A model generated the notes under the pieces. It searched no databases. It had not been told where the DNA came from and was given only the letters and a program-made list of their open reading frames with translations. From Acidimicrobiales bacterium (GTDB lineage Bacteria; Actinomycetota; Acidimicrobiia; Acidimicrobiales; RAAP-2), in contig JASHUY010000233.1 of the NCBI GenBank assembly GCA_030039755.1, positions 1 through 64,000 of the forward strand: a stretch of 64,000 nt of DNA, read 5' to 3'. Both the position numbers and the translations under genes were made by a program. The first letter of the stretch is position 1. Each line of letters begins with the position of its first letter. Shown here piece by piece: positions 8,781 through 24,272 of the stretch.

Positions 8781-9918
8781 CTACGCGGGCTCCCCGGGCG
8801 GTCGACGCTTGGGTCGCACCACCGAGTGGCCGGGGAAGCGGGGCGGGAAGCCGAGTGGCTGCGCGACGGCGGACACGCCCGCGTTCGGCGCACCGGCGAC
8901 GACCACGAGGACGTCGTCCGGCGACCGCAGCACCCCGACCCGTCGATCCCAACCCGGGTCGTCCTCGGCGCTGCCGGAGGGCTGCGCCCAGCCGTGCATG
9001 GACCCGGTCGAGACCGGTGCGTTGCTCGGGGTCGGCCTGACCCCGTCCTTGCCGGTGCGCCGGAGGTCGCCCAGCCTCCGCACGGCGTTCTCGACGAGGT
9101 ACTCCTTCACGTCGCGCTTGGTCATCCCCTGCGTCGCGAGCAACTGGGCGTGCTCGGGGCCGATGATCACGGCGATGCGCTTCTCGGCCCGCAAGATCGT
9201 GCCGGTCCGGGCGATCGAGTCGCCGATGTCGTTCAGGATGTGGTGGGCATCGGCCGTCTGCCGGTTGTCGATGAAGTCGATGCCGCGGGTGTGCAGCGCC
9301 GAGACCGCGCTCTCGTCGGAGGAACCGCCGAGCTCCACGTGGAGCGGCTCCCAGGGGCTCTCCTCCTCGTTCTCGGCGATGCACAGGCTGTACTTGCCGG
9401 GATTGCCCTGCGTCGACTGGTCGAGCTCGTGCGGGCTCACCCCGAAGACGTCGATGATGACGAGCCGCATCGTCCGGCCGACGGTCGCGTTCGCGCGGAA
9501 GCCCGGGCCGAAGACGTTGCCTCTCGAGTTGAAGCCGAGCTCGGTGCGCACCGGGCCGTTGACGATCAGCAGCGGCCCGCCTCCGGTGGTGCTCTGCCAT
9601 GCCCCCGCCTCCGGCCACCCCTCGTCGATGACCGCCTCGAAGGCGGCGAGGACGACGGGAAGGTACTCGGGTCGGCAACCCGCCATCGCCGCGCAGACGG
9701 CGATCTGGCGCACCGTCGCGACCCGTCGGAATTGGCTGATGTTGGCCAGGATCTCGTCCGGGTCCCGGTCGGTCGCAGAGAGGAACCGCTCGACGAGCTC
9801 CGGCGTCGGCGGCACGACGGGCAGGCCGTCGGTCCAACCCTGCTCGTAGCAGTGCTCGATCGCCTGGAGGAGGGGGTCGAGGTCGACCGGTGGTTCGTCC
9901 CGCGCCTCGTCGACGGCC
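8781..9918 (-). CDS. Conserved partner protein of the UGSC selenoprotein (copy 1; function unknown). ORF start codon is 9918-9920
   Basis: ATGA overlap with the upstream UGSC gene (ATG 9918-9920, stop 9920-9922). Closely similar to 20343..21413 (AIEHCYxQGWxDGLPxVP, ELGFNSxGxxFGPGFRxNAT, PHExDQxTQGxPGxxSxCxxENEEESPWEPL). Confidence 0.8.
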
Positions 9919-9919
9919 A

Positions 9920-10474
9920 TCAGCTGTGCCGCCCGGGCTCGCCGCCCGCGCCGGGGCCGCGCAGGATCTCGAGGACCTGGGGAGCGGCCAACTCCGCGTG
10001 GGCGCGCAGCCCGTCGGCGTCGAGGCTGCTCACCGGGTGCGGGACGATCGCGTAGCGGTACCCCGGGGCCCCGTGCAGGGCTGCCATGGCGTTCGCGCTC
10101 GCTTGGAGCGCATCGGTGCAGATCGCCGCGGACGGCACGCCGCGACGCTCGAGAAAGATGACGTCGGCCACACTGGCCGCGCTACAGCTCCCTCAATCGC
10201 CTATCGCCTCGATGACGAGGTCGCACTCCGCGGCGATCTGGTCGAGCACCTCGTCGGACGCCGGCAGCGTCCCGGGAACGCTGTACCGGTTGACGATCGC
10301 GGGCTCGAGCTCGTCCCGCAGGAAGGCCTCCACCTCCTCGAGCAGCGCGGCGGCGTTGGCCTTGGTGTTCTCCATGAGGCCGAGACGCAACCCGCGCAGT
10401 TCGGCCGGACGGGCTGCCAGGGTCACGGCGAGGCCGGTCGGCTGCTGAGTGGGATCGACGAGCACGAACTTCAT
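9920..10474 (-). CDS. UGSC-motif selenoprotein candidate; in-frame TGA at 10193-10195 proposed to encode selenocysteine (184 aa if read through)
   Basis: ORFs 10193..10474 and 9920..10171 share a frame and are separated by one TGA: MKFVLVDPTQQPTGLAV...CDLVIEAIGD-[TGA]-GSCSAASVADVIFLERRGVPSAAICTDALQASANAMAALHGAPGYRYAIVPHPVSSL. It aligns with the Cys paralog at 19789..20343, which has TGT at this position. Confidence 0.85.
10161..10182 (-). promoter_or_regulatory. Candidate bacterial SECIS hairpin downstream of the UGA
   Basis: Minus strand GCGCGGCC-AGUGU-GGCCG(a)CGU: 8 pairs including one G-U, one bulged A, 5-nt loop with G at its second position, loop starting after 18 nt from the UGA. Confidence 0.5.
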
Positions 10475-10524
10475 TACGCCATCCTCCTTCTCCCGTCGGA
10501 CCGCGCCCGACACGTGGGACTCTA

Positions 10525-10609
10525 TTCGACGCCGCGTGCCGCAGGCCCGGACCCCGTTCGACGCCGCGTTCCGGGGTGAGACCGTTCCCGTTCGACGCCG
10601 CGTGCCGGG
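10525..10609. repeat. Imperfect direct repeats (core TTCGACGCCGCGT, three copies) between the ABC ATPase stop and the selenoprotein start
   Basis: Copies start at 10525, 10557 and 10591. The latter two share CCGTTCGACGCCGCGTNCCGGGGTNAGACCGTT. Confidence 0.8.
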
Positions 10610-10610
10610 G

Positions 10611-11870
10611 TCAGACCGTTGCGCCGATCGGTTCGTCGCAGGGGTGCCAGCAGGCGAAGCGGTGACCGTCGCCCCCGGGGGCGACCAGCTCCGGGGTGCT
10701 CGTCCGGCAGCGCTCGTCCGCCCGGTCGCAGCGCGGCGCGAAGGCACACCCGGCCGGTAGACGGCTGAGGTCCGGCGGGCGACCCTCCACCACGGGTAGC
10801 AGCAGGTGCGACGGGCGGTCGAGGCGGGGGATCGCCTGCAGCAACGCCCGGGTGTAGGGCATCTTCACGTTGGCGAAGAGCTCCCGCGTCAACGCCTGCT
10901 CGACCGCCCGCCCGCCGTACATCACGATCACCTCGTCGACGTAGGAGGCCGCCAGCCCGAGATCGTGGCTGACGAGCACGAGCGCCATGTTGCTCTGCTC
11001 CTGCAGCTCGATCAGCAGCTCCATGATCTGGGCCTGGGTGGTGACGTCGAGCGACGTGGTCGCTTCGTCTGCGATCAGCAGCTTCGGGTCGCACGCCAAG
11101 GCGATGGCGATCATGACCCGCTGGCGCATGCCCCCGGACAGCTGGTGGGGGTAGTCGAGGTAGCGGCGGGCCGCAGCCGGGACGCGCACGCGCTCGAGCA
11201 GGTCCACCGCCCGGTCCCGGGCCTCGTCGCGGCTGACCGGCAGGTGGGCGCGCACGGCCTCCGCGACCTGCCGCCCGATCCGCATGGTCGGGTTGAGCGA
11301 ACGGGAGGGGTCCTGGAACACCATGGACACCCCCGTCCCCCGGTAGCGGCAGAGCTCCTTCTCCGAGAGCCCGACCAGCTCGTCGCCCCCGAGGCGGACA
11401 GACCCCGTGACCCGGGCGGTCGGCGGGAGGAGGCCCATCACCGCCCGGCAGCTCACCGTCTTGCCCGAGCCGGACTCGCCGATGATCGCGAGGCTCTTGC
11501 CCGCTGCCAGCTCGTAGCTGATCCCGTTGACGGCGTAGACCTGCCGCCTCCGCTGGACGAAGCGCACGCGGAGGTCGCGTACGACGAGCAACGACTCGCG
11601 ACCGACCTGCCCGTCTCCCGTCCCCGTCGCGCTAGCCGCCACGCCGACGTCCTGGTTCGTGTGCAGCGCCAACCGTTCCTCCAGGGCGCCGGGTGCGGGT
11701 ACCGTGGGATTTCGCGGGCTCACCGTAGCCACCGCCTCCTGGGAGCACAAGAACTCCCCGGAGCCCGCCGGGTGCGTGGTGCCGTCGGGTCCCGGCGACG
11801 ACGGGGGGCCTCCGTGGACGCGACGTGGACGCGACGTGGGGCTACGTGACCCGGGCGGGCCGATGTGCAC
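10611..11870 (-). CDS. Oligopeptide/dipeptide ABC transporter ATP-binding protein (DppD/OppD-like); start uncertain
   Basis: Walker A GESGSGKT, signature LSGGMRQRVMIAIALACDPKLLIADEATTSLD, C-terminal CAFAPRCDRADERC. N-terminal ~80 residues of the ORF look non-coding; a GTG near 11723 is plausible. Confidence 0.85.
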   Translation of the reverse strand: MHIGPPGSRSPTSRPRRVHGGPPSSPGPDGTTHPAGSGEFLCSQEAVATVSPRNPTVPAPGALEERLALHTNQDVGVAASATGTGDGQVGRESLLVVRDLRVRFVQRRRQVYAVNGISYELAAGKSLAIIGESGSGKTVSCRAVMGLLPPTARVTGSVRLGGDELVGLSEKELCRYRGTGVSMVFQDPSRSLNPTMRIGRQVAEAVRAHLPVSRDEARDRAVDLLERVRVPAAARRYLDYPHQLSGGMRQRVMIAIALACDPKLLIADEATTSLDVTTQAQIMELLIELQEQSNMALVLVSHDLGLAASYVDEVIVMYGGRAVEQALTRELFANVKMPYTRALLQAIPRLDRPSHLLLPVVEGRPPDLSRLPAGCAFAPRCDRADERCRTSTPELVAPGGDGHRFACWHPCDEPIGATV

Positions 11871-12132: not shown

Positions 12133-13269
12133 GTGGCCGCGATGACGGAAACCGTCAGCAGGACCCGAGCAGCCGTGCTTCACGAGTTCGGCAAGCCGTG
12201 GGACATCGTCGAGCTCGACCTCGACCCTCCCAAGGAGACCGAGGTCCTCGTCAAGTTCAAGGCGGCGGGGCTGTGCCACTCCGACGAGCACATCCGCTCA
12301 GGCGACAGCCGCGCCCGCCTCCCGATCGTCGGCGGCCACGAGGGCTCCGGCGTGGTCGTGGCTGCGGGCTCCAAGGTCACCCGGGTGGCCGAAGGCGACC
12401 ACATCGTCTGCTCGTTCATCCCGGTCTGCGGCGCATGCCGCTACTGCCAGACCGGCCGCTCCAGCCTTTGCAACCGAGGTTTGTACGCCGCGGTCGGCTG
12501 CCTCCCCGACCAGACCTTCCGCTTCCACGAGAACGGCGAGGACGTGGGCGGCATGTGCGTGCTCGGCACCTTCTCGGAGTACGCCGTCCTCTCCGAGTGG
12601 TCGGTGACCAAGATCCACGACTGGCTCCCCTTCGACGTGGCGGCGCTGGTGGGTTGCGGCGTCACCACCGGGTGGGGCTCGGCCGTCTACGCCTCGCAGG
12701 TGCGCGCCGGGGACGTCGTCGTCGTCTTCGGCATCGGCGGGGTCGGGATCAACGCCGTGCAGGGCGCCCGGTTCGCCGGGGCCAAGCATCTCGTGGCCGT
12801 CGACCCGGTCCCCTTCAAACTGGAGATGGCCGAGAAGGTCGGCGCCACCCGTACGTTCACCGACCCCGACGAAGCGCAGAAGTTCATCACCGAGGTCACC
12901 TGGGGCGAAGGAGCGGATCACGCCATCTTGACCGTCGGCGTGATGACGGCCGACGTCGTCGACCGGGGGATCAAGATCGTCGGCAAGGGCGGCACGATCA
13001 CCATCACGGGCATCCCGAAGCAGGGCGAGATGACCATCGTCCAGAACAGCGCCGCCATCACCGGCTGGCAGAAGCGCATCCAGGGGACCATCTTCGGGTC
13101 GTCGAACCCCCTCCACGACATCCCCCGCCTGCTCTCGCTCTGGGAGAACGGCGACCTGATGCTGGACGAGCTGATCACGAGGCGCTACACGCTCGACGAG
13201 GTCAACGAGGGGTACCAGGACATGCTGGACGGCAAGAACATCCGCGGCGTCGTGATCTACGACGGGTGA
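12133..13269 (+). CDS. NDMA-dependent (mycofactocin-associated type) Zn alcohol dehydrogenase, copy 1
   Basis: GLCHSDEHIRSG, GGHEGSGVV, CGACRYCQTGRSSLCNRG, VVVFGIGGVGINAVQGA, EGYQDMLDGKNIRGVVIYD. Confidence 0.85.
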   Translation: MAAMTETVSRTRAAVLHEFGKPWDIVELDLDPPKETEVLVKFKAAGLCHSDEHIRSGDSRARLPIVGGHEGSGVVVAAGSKVTRVAEGDHIVCSFIPVCGACRYCQTGRSSLCNRGLYAAVGCLPDQTFRFHENGEDVGGMCVLGTFSEYAVLSEWSVTKIHDWLPFDVAALVGCGVTTGWGSAVYASQVRAGDVVVVFGIGGVGINAVQGARFAGAKHLVAVDPVPFKLEMAEKVGATRTFTDPDEAQKFITEVTWGEGADHAILTVGVMTADVVDRGIKIVGKGGTITITGIPKQGEMTIVQNSAAITGWQKRIQGTIFGSSNPLHDIPRLLSLWENGDLMLDELITRRYTLDEVNEGYQDMLDGKNIRGVVIYDG

Positions 13270-13400: not shown

Positions 13401-13446
13401 AAGGGGGTAGTTCAGTGAGACACAAGGGGGTAGTCCAGTGAAAGAG
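13401..13446 (+). repeat. Tandem 23-nt duplication of the RBS/start region upstream of the substrate-binding protein gene
   Basis: AAGGGGGTAGTTCAGTGAGACAC / AAGGGGGTAGTCCAGTGAAAGAG. Confidence 0.85.
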
Positions 13447-15141
13447 CACTCTGCAAGAGTTCGCGCAGAGCGGGGGCACAGGCGGGTGTTCATCGGGGCC
13501 GGCATGGCGTCGCTCGTCGTGGCGATGGTGCTCATGCTGATCGGCACCGGTTCGATGGCCTCGGCGGCGCGCTCGCACGATCTCGCGAACGTTGCGGCGG
13601 CGCACACGACCTCGTCGGCGCACACGACCTCCTCGGCACCGCCGTGCCCGTACTGCGGCGGCGTCACTCCGAAGGAGGGAGGCTCGATGACGGTGCTCGA
13701 GTGGACGGGTTACGAGGGCAGCTGGCCCGGACTCGACCCGGAGACCGACACCGACGGCGGTGCGGACATCAGCTATCTGGACGCCATCTTCGGTGAGCTG
13801 TTCGAGCTCGGCCCGACAGGCGCGAACGTCGACGACCTCGCCACCGGTTACAAGTTCACGAACGGCACAAAGACGATCGACGTCTTCATCCGGAAGGGAG
13901 TGAAGTTCTCCGACGGCGAGTCGTTCACGCCCACAGCCGTTGCCGCCGACTGGAAGGCCGACCTCACGACCAGCTGTTCGTGCAAGCCGACCTTCGACCA
14001 GAAGACAACGCCGGTCATCAAGGTGATCCCGGGCGGGGTGTCGATCACGCTGCAGTACGTCGACGCCTCGTTCATCAGCGCGATGCAGGGGAGCATCTTC
14101 AACTGGATCGTGGCGCCGGGAGCGCTCGCCAAGGAGGGTGCGGCGAAGTACGCCATCACCCCGGTCGGCGCAGGCCCCTTCGAGGTCGTGAGCGACACGC
14201 CGAGCTCGGTCCTGGTGCTGAAGAAGAACCCGCACTACTGGCAGACCGGGCTTCCCTACCTCAACAACCTGACGTTCAAGTCGGTGGCCAACACAGAAGC
14301 GGCCTACGAGGCGATGCTGGCGGGGGCCGGGCAGGCGTACGAGGACATCTCCTCGCCGTCGCTGGCGAAATCGTTCGGGTCGCACTTCACCCTCACGAGC
14401 GAGCCCTCCACGTCGCCGTACGACATCCAGGTCAACACGTCGATCAAGCCGTTCACAAACATCACAGCGCGCAAGGCCATCTACTACGCCACGACAGCCA
14501 AGCTGCTCGACACAAAGCTGTTCGGCGGGAAGACCCCCGTGGGTGAGTCCTTCGAAGCCCCTGCCGGCAAGTTCTACGAGCAGAAGGTGCCCGGTTACAT
14601 CGGCTACACACTCAGCAAGGCCAAGGCGATCGTGAAGAAGCTCGGCGGACTCTCCTTCACACTCTTCACGATCGAGAACGTCCAAGCGCAGGAGATGGAC
14701 GAGGCGCTGCAGACGATGTACGAGGACGCGGGCATGCACGTGACGCTCAAGGAGTACACACTCACCGCGTTGGTGGCGGAGTTCGAGACCGGCAAGTGGC
14801 AGATCGCGCTGCAGACGGCGGGTGCCTACACACCGGCCACCGGCGTCGGCGTGGCCTTCCGCTTCACATCGCACTCGCCGTTCTCGGGCGTGCACTCCAC
14901 ACAGCTCGACACCCTGCTGGAGGAGGCCGCCGGGACGACCGACACATCCGTCCGGCAGAAGTACTACGACGATGCGGCCGCCCTCATCGCCAAGGAGGCC
15001 TGGGGGCCGTTCCTCTTCCCGATCAACGGCTACGACACGGTGATCCACAACGCCGGCGGCCCAGGTCTGTCGACCCCGCTCGCGGCGGTGGACGTGGTTC
15101 CGGCGATCCTGTGGGAGTACGCCTACAACAACAACTCCTAG
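13438..15141 (+). CDS. ABC transporter substrate-binding protein, family 5 (peptide/nickel type)
   Basis: GTG start; N-terminal hydrophobic signal segment; VLEWTGYEGSWPGLDP, KGVKFSDGESFTPTAVAADW, GAGPFEVVSDTPSSVLVLKKNPHYW typical of SBP_bac_5. Confidence 0.85.
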   Translation: MKEHSARVRAERGHRRVFIGAGMASLVVAMVLMLIGTGSMASAARSHDLANVAAAHTTSSAHTTSSAPPCPYCGGVTPKEGGSMTVLEWTGYEGSWPGLDPETDTDGGADISYLDAIFGELFELGPTGANVDDLATGYKFTNGTKTIDVFIRKGVKFSDGESFTPTAVAADWKADLTTSCSCKPTFDQKTTPVIKVIPGGVSITLQYVDASFISAMQGSIFNWIVAPGALAKEGAAKYAITPVGAGPFEVVSDTPSSVLVLKKNPHYWQTGLPYLNNLTFKSVANTEAAYEAMLAGAGQAYEDISSPSLAKSFGSHFTLTSEPSTSPYDIQVNTSIKPFTNITARKAIYYATTAKLLDTKLFGGKTPVGESFEAPAGKFYEQKVPGYIGYTLSKAKAIVKKLGGLSFTLFTIENVQAQEMDEALQTMYEDAGMHVTLKEYTLTALVAEFETGKWQIALQTAGAYTPATGVGVAFRFTSHSPFSGVHSTQLDTLLEEAAGTTDTSVRQKYYDDAAALIAKEAWGPFLFPINGYDTVIHNAGGPGLSTPLAAVDVVPAILWEYAYNNNS

Positions 15142-15380
15142 TCCGCGCTCGGGGAGCAGCGGTACGACACGGACGGACGAGAGCAAGAAACGGCTCGTGA
15201 CCGAAGGAGCAGTGCGAGGTCGAGTAGGAAGGCGCTTGTGACAGCGTGCTGCTCGAGAGGGTTGCTCGGGGGTGCCGGGACACCGGCGCCCCCGAGCGGT
15301 CCCGACCTCGCGCCGGTCGCCAACCGGGTGGTGACCGCCTGCGGGCACGGCGCCGGCGAGGAACGGCACGGCAGGTCGCG

Positions 15381-16463
15381 TTGAGCACGTCGGTGATCGC
15401 GCCGTCGAGGGGGGCGGGGGGGAACGACCCGTCCCGGGCGGCGGGCGGGGACAAGGGGGACGGGAGCGGCCTGCGGTGGTGGGCGGCGTTCTCCTCGTCG
15501 CCCACCCTCCGACTCGTCGTCCGCCGTATCCTCGTCGCCATCCCGGTGATGGTCGGGGTGACCTTCCTCACGGCCGTCCTCTTGAACCTGCTGCCGGGGG
15601 ACGCCGCCTCAGCCCTGCTCGGGGCGGACGCCACCCCCCAGGAGGTGCACCAGCTCTACCTCAAACTGCACCTGAACGAGCCGTTCTTCGTGCGGTACTG
15701 GCAATGGATCGTGGGGGTCTTCCACGGGCACCTGGGCGCCTCGTTGCAGAACGGCCAGCCGGTCGCCCAGATCATCGGTCAGCGGCTGCCGATCACCTTC
15801 GAGCTCATCGTCTTCGCCTCGATCGTGATGCTGCTGATCTCGATCCCCCTGGCGATGCTGTGCGCGCGCCGCCCGGGAGGGGTCGTCGACCGGATCACGA
15901 TGGTCCTGTCGATGGGCTTCCTTTCGGTCCCCCAGTTCGTGCTCGGGCTCATCTTCGTGCTCGTCTTCGCGGTGATCTTCCGCGTCTTTCCGGCTCTCGG
16001 CTACACGCCGATCACCCAGAGCGTGGGCGAGAACCTCCGGGACTTCACCCTCCCCGCCTTCAGCATCGCGCTGCCCTTGGCCGGGTTCTACGTCCGGCTG
16101 CTGCGGGCGGACCTCATCGAGCAGATGGAGTCGCAGGACTACGTGGTCACCGCCCGCGCCAAGGGCTTCGGCTCCTGGTACATCCTCACCCGCCACGCGT
16201 TCAGGAACTCGCTCATCGGCTTCGTGACCATCTTCGGGCTGAACGTGGCCACGCTGTTCGCGTACACCGTCATCGTCGAGGAGATCTTCGGCCTCCCCGG
16301 TCTCGGGTACGCGCTCATCAACGGTGTGGGCGACCGGGACGCTCCGCTCGTCCAGGGCATCGTCCTGGTTCTCGCCGGCATCGTCGTCATCGTGAACCTG
16401 CTCACCGACCTCACGTACGGCGTCATCGACCCGAGGGTCCGCTATGGCCGCTCTGCTGTCTGA
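15381..16463 (+). CDS. ABC transporter permease (DppB-like)
   Basis: RRILVAIPVMVGVTFLTAVLLNLLPGD...; EAA-loop YVVTARAKGFGSWYILTRHAFRNSLI. Probable TTG start. Confidence 0.85.
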   Translation: MSTSVIAPSRGAGGNDPSRAAGGDKGDGSGLRWWAAFSSSPTLRLVVRRILVAIPVMVGVTFLTAVLLNLLPGDAASALLGADATPQEVHQLYLKLHLNEPFFVRYWQWIVGVFHGHLGASLQNGQPVAQIIGQRLPITFELIVFASIVMLLISIPLAMLCARRPGGVVDRITMVLSMGFLSVPQFVLGLIFVLVFAVIFRVFPALGYTPITQSVGENLRDFTLPAFSIALPLAGFYVRLLRADLIEQMESQDYVVTARAKGFGSWYILTRHAFRNSLIGFVTIFGLNVATLFAYTVIVEEIFGLPGLGYALINGVGDRDAPLVQGIVLVLAGIVVIVNLLTDLTYGVIDPRVRYGRSAV

Positions 16464-17337
16464 GACCGAGACGCAGATCCTGCCGGAGGCGGTGCTCGAA
16501 GAGATCCCGGTGCGCCGCGGCCGGGGCTGGGTGCGCTCGCTCGACATCTACATCCCCGGCGTCTTCCTCCTCGCCCTCTTGTTCGTCTGCTTCATCTGGC
16601 CGTACCTCTACACGATCCCCCCGCCCGTAGGGGGCAGCATCCTCGACGCCGGCCTGCCGGTCGGCTCGCCGGGACACATCTTCGGGACGACAGCGGTGGG
16701 TAACGACGTCATGTCCCGACTCATCTACGGCGGCAGGACCTCCTTCGAGATCGTCTTCGCCGTCCAGGGCTTGGGCCTCGCCGTTGGGGGCCTGATCGGC
16801 GTGATGGCGGCCATGATGCGGGGGGTGGCGGAGACGGTGGCGATGCGCCTTCTCGACGTGATCATCGCCTTCCCCGCCTTCGTCCTCGTCGTCGTCATCG
16901 TCCTGGGTCTCGGCGCCAGCGAGATCAATCTCATCTGGGCGCTCGCCGTGATCAGCGTCCCGACCTTCGCCCGGGTCGCGCGGGCCGGCGCGGTGACCGT
17001 GAGGGAGCGGACCTACGTCGTGGCGGCGGAGCTGTCGGGCTCGAAGCGCTGGCAGATCGCCCTGCGCCATGTCGTCCCGAACATCATCACGTCCCTGCTC
17101 ACCTTCGCCGTCCTCGGCGCCGGCGTGGTGGTCATCCTCGAGGCGACCGTCAGCTACTTCGGCTACGGGATCCCGCCGCCGGGGCCCAGCTGGGGCAACA
17201 TGATCGCGACCGGCCAGACCACAATGTCCGCACGGCCGTCGCTGCTGCTCATCCCGTGCATCACGCTGCTCATCACGGTCATCGCGCTCAACACCCTGAG
17301 CGAGGGGATGCGCCGGCGCTGGGGGGCGGTCCGGTGA
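16444..17337 (+). CDS. ABC transporter permease (DppC-like)
   Basis: HIFGTTAVGNDVMSRLIYGGRTSFEIVF, YVVAAELSGSKRWQIALRHVVPNI, PPGPSWGNMIATG. Confidence 0.87.
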   Translation: MAALLSETETQILPEAVLEEIPVRRGRGWVRSLDIYIPGVFLLALLFVCFIWPYLYTIPPPVGGSILDAGLPVGSPGHIFGTTAVGNDVMSRLIYGGRTSFEIVFAVQGLGLAVGGLIGVMAAMMRGVAETVAMRLLDVIIAFPAFVLVVVIVLGLGASEINLIWALAVISVPTFARVARAGAVTVRERTYVVAAELSGSKRWQIALRHVVPNIITSLLTFAVLGAGVVVILEATVSYFGYGIPPPGPSWGNMIATGQTTMSARPSLLLIPCITLLITVIALNTLSEGMRRRWGAVR

Positions 17338-17398
17338 GGCCGAGCCGTGCGACCGGGGGCGAGACGGTCGTGGCCGCGCACCGCGGGAGCGCCGGCCC

Positions 17399-18517
17399 AT
17401 GACCGTCAACGGATCGGGCACGACCGCCGGCACGGGCACGCTCCCGGGCGACGTGCCGGCTGGTCGCACCCCGGGAGGGGGGAAGGTCCTCCTCGAGGTG
17501 CGCCACCTCGTGCAGGAGTTCCCCGTCCGCAATGCCGGAGGGGTGAAGGGCGGCATGCTCCAGGCAGTCTCGGACGTCTCGTTCTCCTTGCACGCCGGAG
17601 AATCGCTCGGGGTCGTGGGCGAGACCGGCTCGGGCAAGTCCACCCTCGCCCGCTCCATCGTCCAGGCGCCGCCGCCCAGGTCGGGCGAGGTGATCTTCGA
17701 CGGCGTGGACCTGGTCAAGCTCAAGCGCCGCCAGATGGAACGTCTGCGGCGCCACATGCAGATGGTCTTCCAGGACCCCTTCGGCTCGCTCGACCCGAAG
17801 TGGCGGGTCAGCGACATCGTCGCCGAGCCGCTCGTCGCCTACAGAGTGGGCGGTCGGCAGGAGCGCCGGGCGAGAGTCGACCTGCTCCTGGAGCTCGTCG
17901 GTCTCGATCCGGAGGTGCACGGCGTACGGCACCCGGGACAGCTGTCGGGAGGGCAGGCCCAGCGTGTCGCGATCGCGCGGGCGATCGCGCTCAGTCCGCA
18001 GCTGCTGATCTGCGACGAGCCCGTCTCCTCGCTCGACGTGCTGGTGCAGGCGCAGGTGTTGAACCTGTTCGAAAAGCTCCGGCAGGAGCTCGACCTCGCC
18101 TACCTGTTCATCGCCCACGACCTCGCCCTCGTCAAGCAGGTCAGCGACCGGGTGGCCGTGATGTACCTCGGCAAGTTCTGCGAGGTGGGGCCGTCCGAAA
18201 GCCTCTACGAGGAGCCGCTCCACCCGTACACGTTCGCCCTGCTGAAGTCGATCCCCGACCCGGACCCCGAGACCGGCAGGGTGCGGTCGAAGGACGTCAT
18301 CAGTGGCGAGCTCCCCTCGCCGCTCGACCCGCCCAGCGGTTGCCGCTTCCGCACGCGGTGTCCCCGGGCACAGGCCCGCTGCGCCGAGGAGGTGCCGGAG
18401 CTCCGCATGGTCGGCGAGGACCACCTCGTCGCCTGCCATTTCCCCTTGTCCGTGAAGAGCGGTGGGGACCTCACCGCCGTAGGCTCGGCCGTCGCACCCG
18501 ACACGGCGTCGTCGTGA
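17399..18517 (+). CDS. ABC transporter ATP-binding protein (OppF/DppF-like)
   Basis: GETGSGKSTLARSI, VFQDPFGSLDPKWRV, LSGGQAQRVAIARAIALSPQLLICDEPVSSLDV, CRFRTRCPRAQARC. Confidence 0.9.
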   Translation: MTVNGSGTTAGTGTLPGDVPAGRTPGGGKVLLEVRHLVQEFPVRNAGGVKGGMLQAVSDVSFSLHAGESLGVVGETGSGKSTLARSIVQAPPPRSGEVIFDGVDLVKLKRRQMERLRRHMQMVFQDPFGSLDPKWRVSDIVAEPLVAYRVGGRQERRARVDLLLELVGLDPEVHGVRHPGQLSGGQAQRVAIARAIALSPQLLICDEPVSSLDVLVQAQVLNLFEKLRQELDLAYLFIAHDLALVKQVSDRVAVMYLGKFCEVGPSESLYEEPLHPYTFALLKSIPDPDPETGRVRSKDVISGELPSPLDPPSGCRFRTRCPRAQARCAEEVPELRMVGEDHLVACHFPLSVKSGGDLTAVGSAVAPDTASS

Positions 18518-18626: not shown

Positions 18627-19745
18627 GTGATGAAGACGACCGCCGCAGTCCTTCGGGTCCCGGGCAAGCCTTGGGAGATCACCGAGCTCGACCTCGACGA
18701 GCCGAAACCCCACGAGGTCCTCGTCAGGTTCATGGCGTCGGGGATGTGCCATTCCGACGAGCACATCCGGGAGAGCGGGGGGTCCCACATCCGCATGCCC
18801 CTCGTGGGCGGGCACGAAGGTTCCGGCATCGTCGAGGCGGTGGGCTCGGCGGTGCAGCGGGTGCAGCCGGGCGACCACATCGTGACCTCCTACATCCCTG
18901 CCTGTGGCCACTGTCGCTACTGCTCGACGGGGCGGCAGAACCTGTGCGACCGCGGCCTGTACGCGGGGAAGGGGTGCCTGCAGGACGAGACCTTCCGCTT
19001 CCACCAGGACGGGGAGGATTTCGGGGCTTTCTGCGTCGTCGGCTCCTTCTCCCAGTACTCGGTGGTCTCCGAGTACTCCTGCATCAAGATGGACGACGAC
19101 ATCCCCTTCGAAGTGGCCTGTCTCGTCGGTTGTGGCGCGACCACCGGTTGGGCGTCCGCCGTCTACGCCGCGGACGTGAGGGTCGGCGAGACCGTCGTGA
19201 TCTTCGGCACGGGCGGGGTGGGGATGAACGCCGTCCAGGGGGCGAGGCTCGCCGGCGCGAAGAACGTCATCGCGATCGACCCCGTCCCCTTCAAGCGCGA
19301 GCAGGCGCTGCGCTTCGGGGCGACCCTCGCCTTCGCGGACCCGACAGCGGCGCGAACGAAGATCGTCGAGATCACCCGGGGCCAGCTGGCCGACAAGATC
19401 ATCCTGACGGTCGGCCTCCTCGCCGAGGCGGACGTCTCGAACGCCGTCTCGATGTGCGGCAAGGCAGGCACGGTCGTGATCACCTCGGTCAGCCCGCCCG
19501 ACGAGAAGACCGTGAGCCTGACGGGCAGCCCGCTCGTCGGCTACGTGCGGCGCATCCAGGGCGCCTTGTTCGGGAACGCGAACCCGCTCTACGACATCCC
19601 GAAGATGCTCGGCCTCTACAAGTCCGGCGACATGAAGCTCGAAGAGCTCATCACCCGGCGCTACCCCCTGGAGGAGATCAACGAGGGCTACCAGGACATG
19701 CTGGACGGCAAGAACATCCGTGGCGTGATCGTCCACGAGCATTGA
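18627..19745 (+). CDS. NDMA-dependent (mycofactocin-associated type) Zn alcohol dehydrogenase, copy 2
   Basis: GMCHSDEHIRESG, CGHCRYCSTGRQNLCDRG, FGTGGVGMNAVQGARLAGAKNVIAIDPVPFKRE, EGYQDMLDGKNIRGVIV. Close paralog of 12133..13269. Confidence 0.85.
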   Translation: MMKTTAAVLRVPGKPWEITELDLDEPKPHEVLVRFMASGMCHSDEHIRESGGSHIRMPLVGGHEGSGIVEAVGSAVQRVQPGDHIVTSYIPACGHCRYCSTGRQNLCDRGLYAGKGCLQDETFRFHQDGEDFGAFCVVGSFSQYSVVSEYSCIKMDDDIPFEVACLVGCGATTGWASAVYAADVRVGETVVIFGTGGVGMNAVQGARLAGAKNVIAIDPVPFKREQALRFGATLAFADPTAARTKIVEITRGQLADKIILTVGLLAEADVSNAVSMCGKAGTVVITSVSPPDEKTVSLTGSPLVGYVRRIQGALFGNANPLYDIPKMLGLYKSGDMKLEELITRRYPLEEINEGYQDMLDGKNIRGVIVHEH

Positions 19746-19788: not shown

Positions 19789-20343
19789 ATGGGCAGCCTG
19801 ATCATGGACCCGACCGGACAGACGACGCGGGCCGAGGCCGAGATGCGGCTCGCGCGCCGCCCCGAAAGCCTCCGCGGCAGGACCGTGGGTCTGCTCGACA
19901 ACGGCAAGCAGAATGCCGGCCGTTTCGTCGACGAGCTCGGCAAGGTGCTCGCGGAGCGCTACTCGATCGGCGGCGTGGTCCTGCGCAAGAAGCCCGTGGC
20001 GACGGTGGACGCCCCCGCCGAGCTGCTCGACGACCTCCACGACTCTGTCGAGCTCGTGGTCATCGCGGTCGGCGACTGTGGCTCGTGCAGCGCCGCCGCC
20101 GTGGCCGACGGCATCGCCCTGGAGCGGCTCGGCACCCCGACGGCGGTGGTCTGCACGGAGTCCTTCAAGGCGACCGCCGACGCCATGGCCGTGGTGCGCG
20201 GCGCGTCGGGGTACCGCTACGCCACCGTCGAGCACCCGATGGCAGGCCTTCCGGCGGACGAGGTCCGAGCACGCGCCGAAGGTGTCGCCGACGAGGTCGT
20301 GTCGTTGCTGGTCGACGCCGCGGTACGCCGCGGCGCCGCCTGA
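19789..20343 (+). CDS. CGSC-motif (Cys) paralog of the UGSC selenoprotein, 184 aa
   Basis: MGSLIMDPTGQTTRAEAEMRLARRPESLRG...VIAVGDCGSCSAAAVADGIALERLGTPTAVVCTESFKATADAMAVVRGASGYRYATVEHPMAGL; aligns along its length with 9920..10474. Confidence 0.85.
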   Translation: MGSLIMDPTGQTTRAEAEMRLARRPESLRGRTVGLLDNGKQNAGRFVDELGKVLAERYSIGGVVLRKKPVATVDAPAELLDDLHDSVELVVIAVGDCGSCSAAAVADGIALERLGTPTAVVCTESFKATADAMAVVRGASGYRYATVEHPMAGLPADEVRARAEGVADEVVSLLVDAAVRRGAA

Positions 20344-21413
20344 TGGGAGAGGCCGCCCCGGCGCTGGATCTCGACCCCGAGGCCGCCCAGGCGGCGATCG
20401 AGCACTGCTACGACCAGGGTTGGTCCGACGGCCTCCCACTGGTCCCGGCCACCCGCGAGCTGGTCGACCGCTTCCTCGCGGAGACCGACCGCCCGCCCGA
20501 CGAGGTGATCGGCAGGATGGATCACCTGGGCCGCGCCTGCACGGTCGAGCTGGCAGCGGTGAACGCCGCGATGGCGGGGTGCCTGCCCGAGTACTTCCCC
20601 GTGGTGCTCGCGGCCTGGGAGGCGGTGATGCGTGACCGGGCCGCCAAGGGAGGCGGTTGGCAGAGCACGAGCGGGCCTGCGCCGATGATCGTCGTGAACG
20701 GCACGGTGCGCGAGGAGCTGGGGTTCAATAGCACCGGGGGGGCGTTCGGACCCGGGTTCCGTCCGAACGCCACGGTGCCCCGGGCGATCGGGCTGATCGT
20801 GCGGAACGCCTTCGGGATCAGACCGCACGAGTTCGACCAGGCGACCCAGGGCCTGCCCGGACGCTTCTCGATCTGCTTCGGGGAAAACGAGGAGGAGAGC
20901 CCCTGGGAACCCCTGTCGGTCGAGATGGGGCTGCCCGAAGGTCAGAGCGCGGTGTCGGCCACGCTGCTCCGGACCTGCGAGTTCGTGGACAACCGCCACA
21001 CCGTCGATCCGGACCAGGTCCTCTTCGACTTCGCCGACACCATCGTGCGGACCGGGTCGCTCATCTTCCGGGACCAGTCCTGCTTCGTCGTCTTCGGCCC
21101 GGAGCACGCGCAGCTCCTGGCCAACGCCGGGTACTCGAAGACGGACGTCAAGGACTGGTTCATCGACCACTGCGTGCGCCGGGAGGCCGACCTGCGACGG
21201 GCCGGCAAGGACGCGGTCGGAGAAGGGGGCCTGGGCGGGCGGGGGCCCAGCGACGGGGAGCGGGTGAGCCCGGATACGCTCACCTCGATCATCCCGACCA
21301 GGGCGCAGATCCCGATTACCGTGACCGGCGCCCGGAACGCCGCGATGTCGCTCGTCTGCAGGGTCTTCGGCACGTGGTCGAACACCTCGTGCCCGATCGA
21401 GCGCCGTCGGTGA
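20343..21413 (+). CDS. Conserved partner protein of the CGSC protein (copy 2; function unknown)
   Basis: TGATG overlap with the CGSC gene. Strong similarity to 8781..9920. Confidence 0.82.
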   Translation: MGEAAPALDLDPEAAQAAIEHCYDQGWSDGLPLVPATRELVDRFLAETDRPPDEVIGRMDHLGRACTVELAAVNAAMAGCLPEYFPVVLAAWEAVMRDRAAKGGGWQSTSGPAPMIVVNGTVREELGFNSTGGAFGPGFRPNATVPRAIGLIVRNAFGIRPHEFDQATQGLPGRFSICFGENEEESPWEPLSVEMGLPEGQSAVSATLLRTCEFVDNRHTVDPDQVLFDFADTIVRTGSLIFRDQSCFVVFGPEHAQLLANAGYSKTDVKDWFIDHCVRREADLRRAGKDAVGEGGLGGRGPSDGERVSPDTLTSIIPTRAQIPITVTGARNAAMSLVCRVFGTWSNTSCPIERRR

Positions 21414-21550: not shown

Positions 21551-21774
21551 TCGACTTGGAAGGACTCGCCGGAATCCGTACCTCGCTCGAGGCGGACGGC
21601 TACGAGATCGACGTGACCGAGGGCGAGCGCGTGGAGGTCGTCATCTCGGCCACCCCCGACGCCTGTGCCGAATGCCTGGTGCCGGCGAGCGTGATGGTGC
21701 CGATCCTCGAGCACGCGCTGAAGGTCCCCGGCGACCGCATCGACCTCACCTATCCGGAGGGCCATGAGACATGA
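21547..21774 (+). CDS. Small (75 aa) protein with CxxC, possibly NifU-C-terminal-like
   Basis: GTG start with AAGGAGCGG upstream; LEADGYEIDVTEGERVEVVISATPDACAECLVPASVMVPILEHALK. Overlaps the start of the downstream SDR ORF. Confidence 0.6.
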   Translation: MIDLEGLAGIRTSLEADGYEIDVTEGERVEVVISATPDACAECLVPASVMVPILEHALKVPGDRIDLTYPEGHET

Positions 21775-21784
21775 GCGCCGCGCG

Positions 21785-22660
21785 ATGAGCGCAGTGAGTC
21801 CGGAACGTCGGGTGGCCCTCGTCACCGGCTGCGGAAAACGGGACGGCGTCGGTCGGGGGATCGCCCGGCGCCTGGCCGCCTCGGGGGCCACGGTCGTCGT
21901 GGCCGACCGCAAGTCGACCGGCGTGCTGAACCGGCGCCAGGAGGTCGTCGGGGTCGAAGACGACGGCTGGCGAGGTCTCGACAGCCTCGTCGAGGAGATC
22001 ACGGCCGCGGGGGGCACCGCGAGCTCGGTCACGGGGGACATCGGCGAGGTGGCCGACGCCGACGCCATGGTCGCCGCCGCGGTCGCCGCGCACGGTCGTC
22101 TCGACATCCTGGTCAACAACGCGGCGGCCCCGCAGGGGCTCGACCGCCGTGAGATCGCAGAGGTCCCCGTCGAGGTGTTCGACGAGGTCGTGCGCATCAA
22201 CCTGCGGGGCACCTACCTGATGTCGCGCGCTGCGGTCCCGGTCATGCGCGAGCAGCGGTGGGGGAGGATCGTCGCCGTCTCGTCGATGGCCGGCGTCATC
22301 GGCGCCGCCTACTCGACGGCCTACTCCGCGTCCAAGGCCGGGATCCTCGGCTTCACGCGGGCGCTGGCGATGGACGTGGCCCGCTGGGGCATCACCGTCA
22401 ACGCCGTCGCCCCGGGCGCGGTCGGCACGAGCCGCGCGTTCCTCAGCGAGGACCCGGATCTCGACGTCGACGCAGAGATGGCGCGCAGGGCGCAGGGGAT
22501 CCCGGTCGGGCGCGTGGGGCGACCCGAGGACATCGCCGGCGCGGTCGCCTACCTGGCGAGCGACGACGCCGGGTACATGACCGGCCAGTACCTCGTGCTC
22601 GACGGCGGGGGTCGCGCCGGTTTCCTGCCCGAGCCGGCCCCGGAGCCTTCCGGCAGCTGA
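21785..22660 (+). CDS. SDR family oxidoreductase (possibly mycofactocin-coupled type)
   Basis: ALVTGCGKRDGVGRGIARRLA, NNAA, YSASKAGILGFTRALA; extra segment after the first Rossmann strand (DRKSTGVLNRRQEVVGVEDDGW). Confidence 0.82.
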   Translation: MSAVSPERRVALVTGCGKRDGVGRGIARRLAASGATVVVADRKSTGVLNRRQEVVGVEDDGWRGLDSLVEEITAAGGTASSVTGDIGEVADADAMVAAAVAAHGRLDILVNNAAAPQGLDRREIAEVPVEVFDEVVRINLRGTYLMSRAAVPVMREQRWGRIVAVSSMAGVIGAAYSTAYSASKAGILGFTRALAMDVARWGITVNAVAPGAVGTSRAFLSEDPDLDVDAEMARRAQGIPVGRVGRPEDIAGAVAYLASDDAGYMTGQYLVLDGGGRAGFLPEPAPEPSGS

Positions 22661-22835
22661 GCTCCGGGTCCCCCGGCCCCGCCCTCGACCGGAGTCGGGA
22701 CGGGCGGCGCACATCGCGCGCGTTGCGTCGACGCGCGCCGGTGCTCTACGGTGCGTCGCAGCCCGCTCTGCGCGGACGACGAGCGTCGACACCACGCCAG
22801 AGCCCGCAAGCGCAGGCACAACCGGAGGGCGTCGC

Positions 22836-24272
22836 GTGGGGACGACCGTTGGTCGCAGCATGGACAAGATCGTCGCCTCCCCTGCGGAGGCGGTCGCCGA
22901 CGTCGTCGACGGTTCGAGCGTCGCGATCGCGGGCTTCGGGCTCGCGCACCGCTTTCCCTCGAGCCTGATCATGGCGCTCGCCGACCTCGGGTCGAAGGAC
23001 CTGACCGTCTACTGCAACGGCCTCGGTCAGCCTGGACACCCGACGGCCCACCTGCTGGCGGAGAACCATCAGCTGGGCAAGCTCGTCGCCTCTTTCTCCG
23101 CCCGTCCGGGGGTGCGCGAGTCCGAGGCCGAGACCCAGATCACCGCCGGCCAGCTCGAGTTCGAGGTCGTCCCGCAGGGCACCCTGGTCGAACGGATGCG
23201 CGCCGGGGGGGCGGGGCTGGCGGCGATCTACACGCCCACTGCGGTGGGCACCCCGCTCGCCGAGGGCAAGGAGGTCCGCTACTTCGACGGGAAGCCCTAC
23301 GTCCTCGAGCTGGCGATCACCACCGACTTCGCCTTCCTCCGCGGCTACCGCGGCGACCGTCTCGGCAACATCCAGATGCGCGGCGGCTCGCGCAACTTCA
23401 ACGTCAGCTTCGCCAAGGCGGCCCGCGTCGCCATCGCCGAGGTCGAGGAGATCGTCGAGCCCGGCGAGATCCCGCCGGACCTCGTGGACATCCCGGGAGC
23501 GTTCGTGGGCCGCGTCGTCCAGAGCACCTACACGATGGACACGAGGTCGCTGCCGATGCGCCCGAACCGTGCGGCGACCAGCGCGCGGTCCTACAACGAC
23601 AAGCCGGCGCTTGCCCGGAACGAGATCGCGCGGCGTGCCGCGCTGCTGCTCGAGGACCGCACGTACGTGAACCTCGGCGCAGGGCTCCCGAACCTCATCA
23701 CGAACCACCTCGGCGACCGGGAGGTCGTCCTCCACGCCGAGAACGGCATCCTCGACTACGGGTCCTTCGCGGAGGAAGACGACTTCGACCCCGACGTGCA
23801 CGACGCCGGAGGCTGGTTCGTCACGACCCGGCCCGGCACCTCGTTCTTCGAGAGCGTCACCTCCTTCGAGATCGCGCGCTCCGGCCGGCTGTCCGCCGTC
23901 GTGCTCGGCGCCTACCAGGTTGCCGCGAACGGCGACTTCGCCAACTGGGCGACGCCGGAGATGGCCGGGGGCGGGATCGGGGGGGCGATGGACCTCGCGG
24001 TGGGGGCCAAGCGCGTCATCATCACGATGGAGCACTGCGACAGCTCCGGCCGGCCGAAGCTCGTCGAGCGCTGCACCTACCCGATCACCGCGGTCGGGGT
24101 CGTGGACACCGTCGTGACGGACCTCGCCCTCCTGCGGCGCGTCGGGAGCACCTTCCGGCTGGAGGAGGTGGCACGGGGGTTCGGCGTCGACGAGGTGCTC
24201 GCGCTCACCGGCATGCACGTCGAGGTGCCGCCGCAGGTGCGCGTCATGCAGGACGCCTTCGAGTCAACGTGA
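22836..24272 (+). CDS. Fused alpha/beta CoA-transferase (3-oxoacid CoA-transferase-like)
   Basis: IAGFGLAHRFPSSLI, EVVPQGTLVERMRAGGAGL, YVNLGAGLPNLITNHL, HAENGILDYG, GGIGGAMDLAVGAKRVIITMEHCD. Confidence 0.88.
   Translation: MGTTVGRSMDKIVASPAEAVADVVDGSSVAIAGFGLAHRFPSSLIMALADLGSKDLTVYCNGLGQPGHPTAHLLAENHQLGKLVASFSARPGVRESEAETQITAGQLEFEVVPQGTLVERMRAGGAGLAAIYTPTAVGTPLAEGKEVRYFDGKPYVLELAITTDFAFLRGYRGDRLGNIQMRGGSRNFNVSFAKAARVAIAEVEEIVEPGEIPPDLVDIPGAFVGRVVQSTYTMDTRSLPMRPNRAATSARSYNDKPALARNEIARRAALLLEDRTYVNLGAGLPNLITNHLGDREVVLHAENGILDYGSFAEEDDFDPDVHDAGGWFVTTRPGTSFFESVTSFEIARSGRLSAVVLGAYQVAANGDFANWATPEMAGGGIGGAMDLAVGAKRVIITMEHCDSSGRPKLVERCTYPITAVGVVDTVVTDLALLRRVGSTFRLEEVARGFGVDEVLALTGMHVEVPPQVRVMQDAFEST

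Follow-up and report, generated by a model that had tools for sequence, protein, structure and literature searches.

According to the 2008 GOS paper (PMC2398784), UGSC proteins count among the commonest bacterial selenoproteins of aquatic metagenomes, being represented there by 255 selenocysteine (Sec) sequences. The same paper assumes them to be thioredoxin-like, groups them with the Trx-like selenoproteins and describes, as UGSC/Unknown_1, a form in which UGSC is fused to a second conserved domain. UAG-encoded Sec in the UGSC proteins of Geodermatophilaceae is likewise already known (PMC5330540, citing earlier work). In the literature found, up to 2026, no function is given for UGSC. The gene described here is located at 9920..10474 on the minus strand of the window, i.e., the whole stretch of 64,000 nucleotides that was analyzed. 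On sequence grounds, it is a new member of this known selenoprotein family, to which no function has been assigned. The part that adds something is the functional links rather than family membership: a relation to GrdB and PrdB of the glycine/proline reductase group, a near-constant partner and a linkage to thioredoxin turn UGSC from an unknown into a testable biochemical proposal.

The UGSC gene, its in-frame TGA and its paralogs

Read from its ATG at 10474, the minus-strand frame contains a single internal TGA at 10195-10193 (codon 94, motif U-G-S-C, context VIEAIGD-U-GSCSAASVAD) and continues to the final stop TGA at 9922-9920, resulting in 184 aa on read-through. In this respect, the initial annotation was correct to the base. 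It had also expected standard ORF calling to split the gene, and the default listing indeed gives only a truncated ORF, 10193-10747, ending at the TGA. A Shine-Dalgarno-like AAGGAGG (10483..10489, minus strand) precedes the ATG by 8 nt; scans for promoters and terminators found nothing. The read-through protein matches NF041046 with 145.7 bits (cut-off 125) and PF24696 with 187.8 bits (cut-off 25), in both cases at full length and across the internal TGA, so that the read-through frame represents more than chance. The family name given in the initial annotation, UGSC family (seleno)protein, is the right one, being that of NF041046, and the label of a CxxC-like redox motif holds in the form of UxxC.

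A TGA at this position might be an ordinary stop, the gene being a decaying pseudogene or the result of an assembly error. The presence of an intact paralog with Cys in the same cluster would fit such a reading. This paralog, located at 19789..20343 on the plus strand, also comprises 184 aa, as had been remarked from the letters, carries TGT at the Sec column (Cys97 in paralog numbering) and matches NF041046 and PF24696 at full length. Against a pseudogene, the sequence is conserved on both sides of the TGA and the TGA is kept in orthologs. Especially an ortholog with 87% identity from an independent MAG (L053:554-1075) has TGA at the same codon, and not the TGT or TGC that had been considered as a sequencing outcome for 10193-10195, which makes an assembly error very unlikely.

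The Sec and Cys paralogs of the window share ~45% identity and are old separate lineages and not recent copies. A third UGSC copy in the same genome (L010, G000:C114:14996-15508) has one TGA and is followed by the same partner gene; the gene before this copy likely encodes an FAD-dependent oxidoreductase. A similar Sec/Cys pair was observed in Geodermatophilus sabuli, which has TAG-Sec and Cys paralogs of UGSC (L104 and L098).

Selenocysteine insertion at codon 94

Of the 296 genomes examined from this class, 106 contain UGSC, most copies having exactly one internal TGA. Every aligned homolog with the UGSC motif has Sec or Cys at the Sec column (the matches read comprise 36 with U and 75 with C), and D93, U/C94, G95, and C97 are invariant in this alignment. 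Met occupies this column only in distantly related fusion proteins of Sporomusa and Vibrio. An alternation of Sec and Cys among homologs, which the initial annotation had proposed to look for, is borne out by the conservation of U/C at the column and by a UGSC tree that requires five or more switches between Sec and Cys. TAG serves as the Sec codon in five loci of Geodermatophilaceae, four of them from Geodermatophilus records and one from Blastococcus tunisiensis, and the tRNA-Sec of Blastococcus has the anticodon CUA. The codon thus changed together with the tRNA, providing an independent confirmation of the Sec column and a further argument against a pseudogene. Such UAG-encoded UGSC selenoproteins of Geodermatophilaceae were reportedly described by Mukai et al. 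in 2016.

The search for a SECIS element downstream of the TGA, likewise suggested from the letters, yielded a bacterial SECIS-like hairpin with a loop G and a covarying stem, CGGCCA-GUG-UGGCCG, at 10165..10179 on the minus strand. It begins 13 nt downstream of the UGA, and its apical loop, with G as the first base, starts 19 nt after the Sec codon. A hairpin with a GU(N) loop is found at the same distance in UGA and UAG forms, its stem showing compensatory changes between clades. Of 39 distinct Sec forms, 35 have the complete set of six inner pairs, compared with 5 of 73 Cys forms, and the loop begins with GU in 36 of these Sec forms and in none of the Cys forms (0/73), representing a degradation of the element where Cys is used. 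The mean folding energy showed no difference between Sec and Cys forms, so that the signal is to be seen in a position-specific hairpin.

The genome assembly (2.98 Mb, 247 contigs, 70% complete) was examined for the Sec machinery, as had also been advised, and all components were present. A tRNA-Sec was detected with 67.2 bits, ARAGORN giving its anticodon as UCA, the genes for SelA (312.9 bits) and SelD (322.2 bits) lie side by side, and a SelB homolog scored 227.6 bits, just under the TIGR00475 cut-off, with a match to the SelB beta-barrel domain PF25461. The same genome encodes a formate dehydrogenase alpha subunit (FdhA; L211, G000:C134:14702-16561) with one in-frame TGA in the motif SCNRTUHAPSVAG; as far as can be read from the sequence, FdhA is a second selenoprotein family of this genome. 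All tested genomes with Sec UGSC contain a tRNA-Sec that scores above the Rfam cut-off, and none was found in five genomes of Microbacterium, Agromyces, and Actinomadura that were included for their Cys forms.

On the basis of the TGA conserved in orthologs, the covarying SECIS-like hairpin and the full Sec machinery, a pseudogene or sequencing error was rejected, its probability being negligible in our estimation. We regard it as close to certain from these data that the TGA at codon 94 is read as Sec and that the gene encodes a genuine UGSC selenoprotein. Delivery by SelB at the UGA, directed by the hairpin, would lead to one 184-aa protein and not to two fragments.

The family also illustrates annotation loss. 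Sec UGSC genes with a SECIS-like hairpin lie under truncated or split public ORFs of Paracoccus ferrooxidans pFER4 (L202:8423-8992) and Acidovorax sp. T1 p2-T1 (L207:6401-6940), the public records of both cutting the Sec forms at the UGA. On pFER4 (L202:1-15170), the UGSC-partner pair is flanked by selA, selB, DsrE, TusA, and a cysteine desulfurase, and the Sec trait is possibly plasmid-borne in this strain.

Fold of UGSC and its relation to GrdB and PrdB

The predicted model of UGSC (pLDDT 90.1) shows a domain of alternating alpha/beta type with five strands, in which Sec is located just before the third of the helices that follow a strand. Its 50 best PDB matches include flavodoxins and other alpha/beta proteins and no thioredoxin. 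A comparison with the viral fold library gave nothing at E <= 0.001, and PDB sequence searches with the UGSC and partner profiles returned chance matches only, or none.

A profile of 80 UGSC proteins was compared by hhalign with one of the Sec domains from 28 proteins of the GrdB family, all of the same class. The two aligned Sec on Sec with a probability of 94% (E 1.2e-7), and with 92% (E 5.9e-7) after masking both Sec columns, whereby these E-values apply to one pairwise comparison and the homology is remote, spanning about 80 columns. Among the controls, 60 column shuffles reached at most 3.3%, reversal 0.1% and thioredoxin 0.9%. This supports, at sequence level, an assignment of the C-terminal half of UGSC as a remote homolog of the GrdB/PrdB (PF07355) Sec domain. 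PF07355 did not appear among the Pfam matches of the two UGSC queries of the window (P0001/P0003), the families listed for the 80 aligned UGSC proteins did not include it either, and none was found in this genome. A search of the PDB for a Grd/Prd relative with solved structure for fold comparison found none. As a side observation, GrdB-like proteins that are short and stand alone are encoded in many genomes of the class (L135-L161); their PVUPxC motifs contain an in-frame TGA, at which ORF calling would likewise cut the genes.

These comparisons bear on a reading that accepts the Sec as real and sees in UGSC a thioredoxin-like fold with a general thiol/selenol redox function, such as that of an oxidoreductase or peroxidase. 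The UxxC motif and the grouping with Trx-like selenoproteins in the literature speak in its favor, but the topology of the predicted model, the PDB fold search and the profile control with thioredoxin (0.9%) led to the rejection of a thioredoxin fold for UGSC. Neither the fold nor the profile comparison thus supports the published assumption, and the relation to the GrdB domain argues against it. Considering in addition that a fixed partner and catabolic gene clusters are ill suited to a housekeeping redox protein, we judge this reading improbable.

Partner gene, genomic company and proposed chemistry

The gene directly downstream of UGSC (8781..9920, minus strand; 379 aa) belongs to an uncharacterized family, and its ATG shares one base with the UGSC stop (TGATG). 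A second partner gene (20343..21413, plus strand) overlaps the stop of the Cys paralog in the same manner, a sign of translational coupling in both pairs of the window. Among about 110 loci, only L028, L034, and L054 lack a partner next to UGSC; one subfamily has it downstream of UGSC and the other has it upstream. In Variovorax boronicumulans the two are fused. Fusions devoid of the redox residues, with the motif DMGTS, are found in Sporomusa termitida (L203:8239-9963) and Vibrio europaeus (L209:6206-7891). Both of these fusion genes are located near aconitase X/DUF126 genes. We consider it very probable that UGSC and the product of the directly downstream gene are the halves of one two-subunit enzyme.

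The partner (~380 aa), whose invariant residues include C82, T111, R149, and E183, has no Pfam or NCBIfam match, which includes any match to a pyruvoyl subunit (GrdE/PrdA) family in Pfam, and reaches a probability of 0.3% against the GrdB profile. Its predicted model is confident (pLDDT 90.6, pTM 0.90), yet the best match by fold in the PDB has E 0.033 and a TM of about 0.2, allowing no assignment; the modeled fold may therefore be new.

In the window, an oligopeptide-type ABC transporter ATPase (10611..11870, minus strand; PF00005, PF08352) is followed on the plus strand by a zinc-binding alcohol dehydrogenase (ADH; 12133..13269), a peptide-type ABC transporter with binding protein, two permeases and ATPase (13438..18517), an NDMA-dependent ADH (18627..19745; TIGR03989), probably of the same cluster as the zinc-binding one, and an SDR oxidoreductase with a CoA-transferase (21764..24272). 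Several of these recur beside UGSC elsewhere. NDMA-dependent and related ADHs are recurrent neighbors, related ADH genes occurring in 41 of the examined loci. The others comprise peptide-type ABC transporters, SDR, amidohydrolase, aldehyde dehydrogenase, LLM oxidoreductase, CoA-transferase, and IclR regulators, with several of the neighbor-cluster names read from sequences and others taken from profile matches and annotated plasmids. Importers within the clusters are of the ABC, TRAP or TTT type.

TrxB (>240 bits) was detected in 8 of 109 UGSC loci (1.58 Mb) compared with 0 of 69 loci of a small control (0.22 Mb). Given that trxB is typically present in one to three copies per genome, we estimate an expectation of about one or fewer in 1.58 Mb. 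On annotated plasmids, partner-UGSC is immediately preceded by trxB and trxA in Arthrobacter and followed by trxB in Roseovarius, and trxB lies near it in Variovorax SRS16. This linkage concerns a minority of UGSC loci only.

In the mechanism we propose, SelB would bring Sec-tRNA to UGA codon 94, steered by the hairpin, and the resulting UGSC would pair with the product of the directly downstream gene as a two-subunit enzyme. Sec94 would attack as nucleophile a small substrate held together with the partner and cleave or reduce it, and the Se-adduct or Se-S(Cys97) bond would be recycled by thioredoxin, with Cys97 as the resolving residue. We infer this sequence of attack, reductive cleavage or reduction, and recycling from the homology to the GrdB/PrdB Sec domain combined with the linkage to thioredoxin and thioredoxin reductase. 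As the fused relatives with DMGTS lost both redox residues, part of the superfamily presumably does something else, and we hold the mechanism to be evenly poised between right and wrong. The step would belong to the catabolism of an imported organic compound, as suggested by the importers, NDMA-dependent ADH, aldehyde dehydrogenase, SDR, amidohydrolase, and CoA-transferase of the clusters. In the explanation as a whole, i.e., a Sec-containing UGSC in a two-subunit enzyme with Grd-like, thioredoxin-recycled chemistry in catabolism, we place moderate confidence.

The same data can be read with a real Sec and a UGSC-partner pair that is not a Grd-like reductase, Sec or Cys serving as nucleophile or as metal/substrate ligand (in a racemase, lyase or desulfurase) and the thioredoxin genes being incidental. 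The existence of fused homologs without both redox residues, the many chemistries served by flavodoxin/Rossmann-like folds and the low share of loci with thioredoxin genes are compatible with it; the Sec-on-Sec alignment with GrdB, the enrichment of TrxB at UGSC loci and the invariance of Cys97 are not easily accommodated. We hold this reading to be possible and rather doubtful. Returning to the Grd-like, thioredoxin-recycled enzyme, we tentatively suggest, with somewhat less than even confidence, that UGSC and its partner constitute an unrecognized class of thioredoxin-fed reductases. It would combine a stand-alone GrdB/PrdB-type Sec domain with a partner of no known family and of a fold absent from the PDB, and would have a catabolic role in actinobacteria, proteobacteria, Bacillota, and haloarchaea, also in organisms with Cys in place of Sec.

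In comparison with the described UGSC family (NF041046/PF24696), the gene shows the same full-length match, the same U/C-G-S-C motif and Sec or Cys at the same column, without essential difference, the genome investigated here having Cys in one of its three copies and Sec in the other two. The UAG-encoded UGSC proteins of Geodermatophilaceae share family, codon position and hairpin with it, whereas they use UAG with a CUA tRNA-Sec in place of UGA with UCA. In the UGSC/Unknown_1 fusion of PMC2398784, UGSC is joined to a second conserved domain as well, and Unknown_1 is probably the partner described here. Set against glycine/sarcosine/betaine reductase component B and the D-proline reductase protein PrdB, UGSC lacks a direct match to their Pfam family and the full-length GrdB architecture, and its partner is unrelated to the known Grd/Prd subunits; common to all of them is the Sec domain, with U..C followed by the E..G-P and [HF]P motifs.
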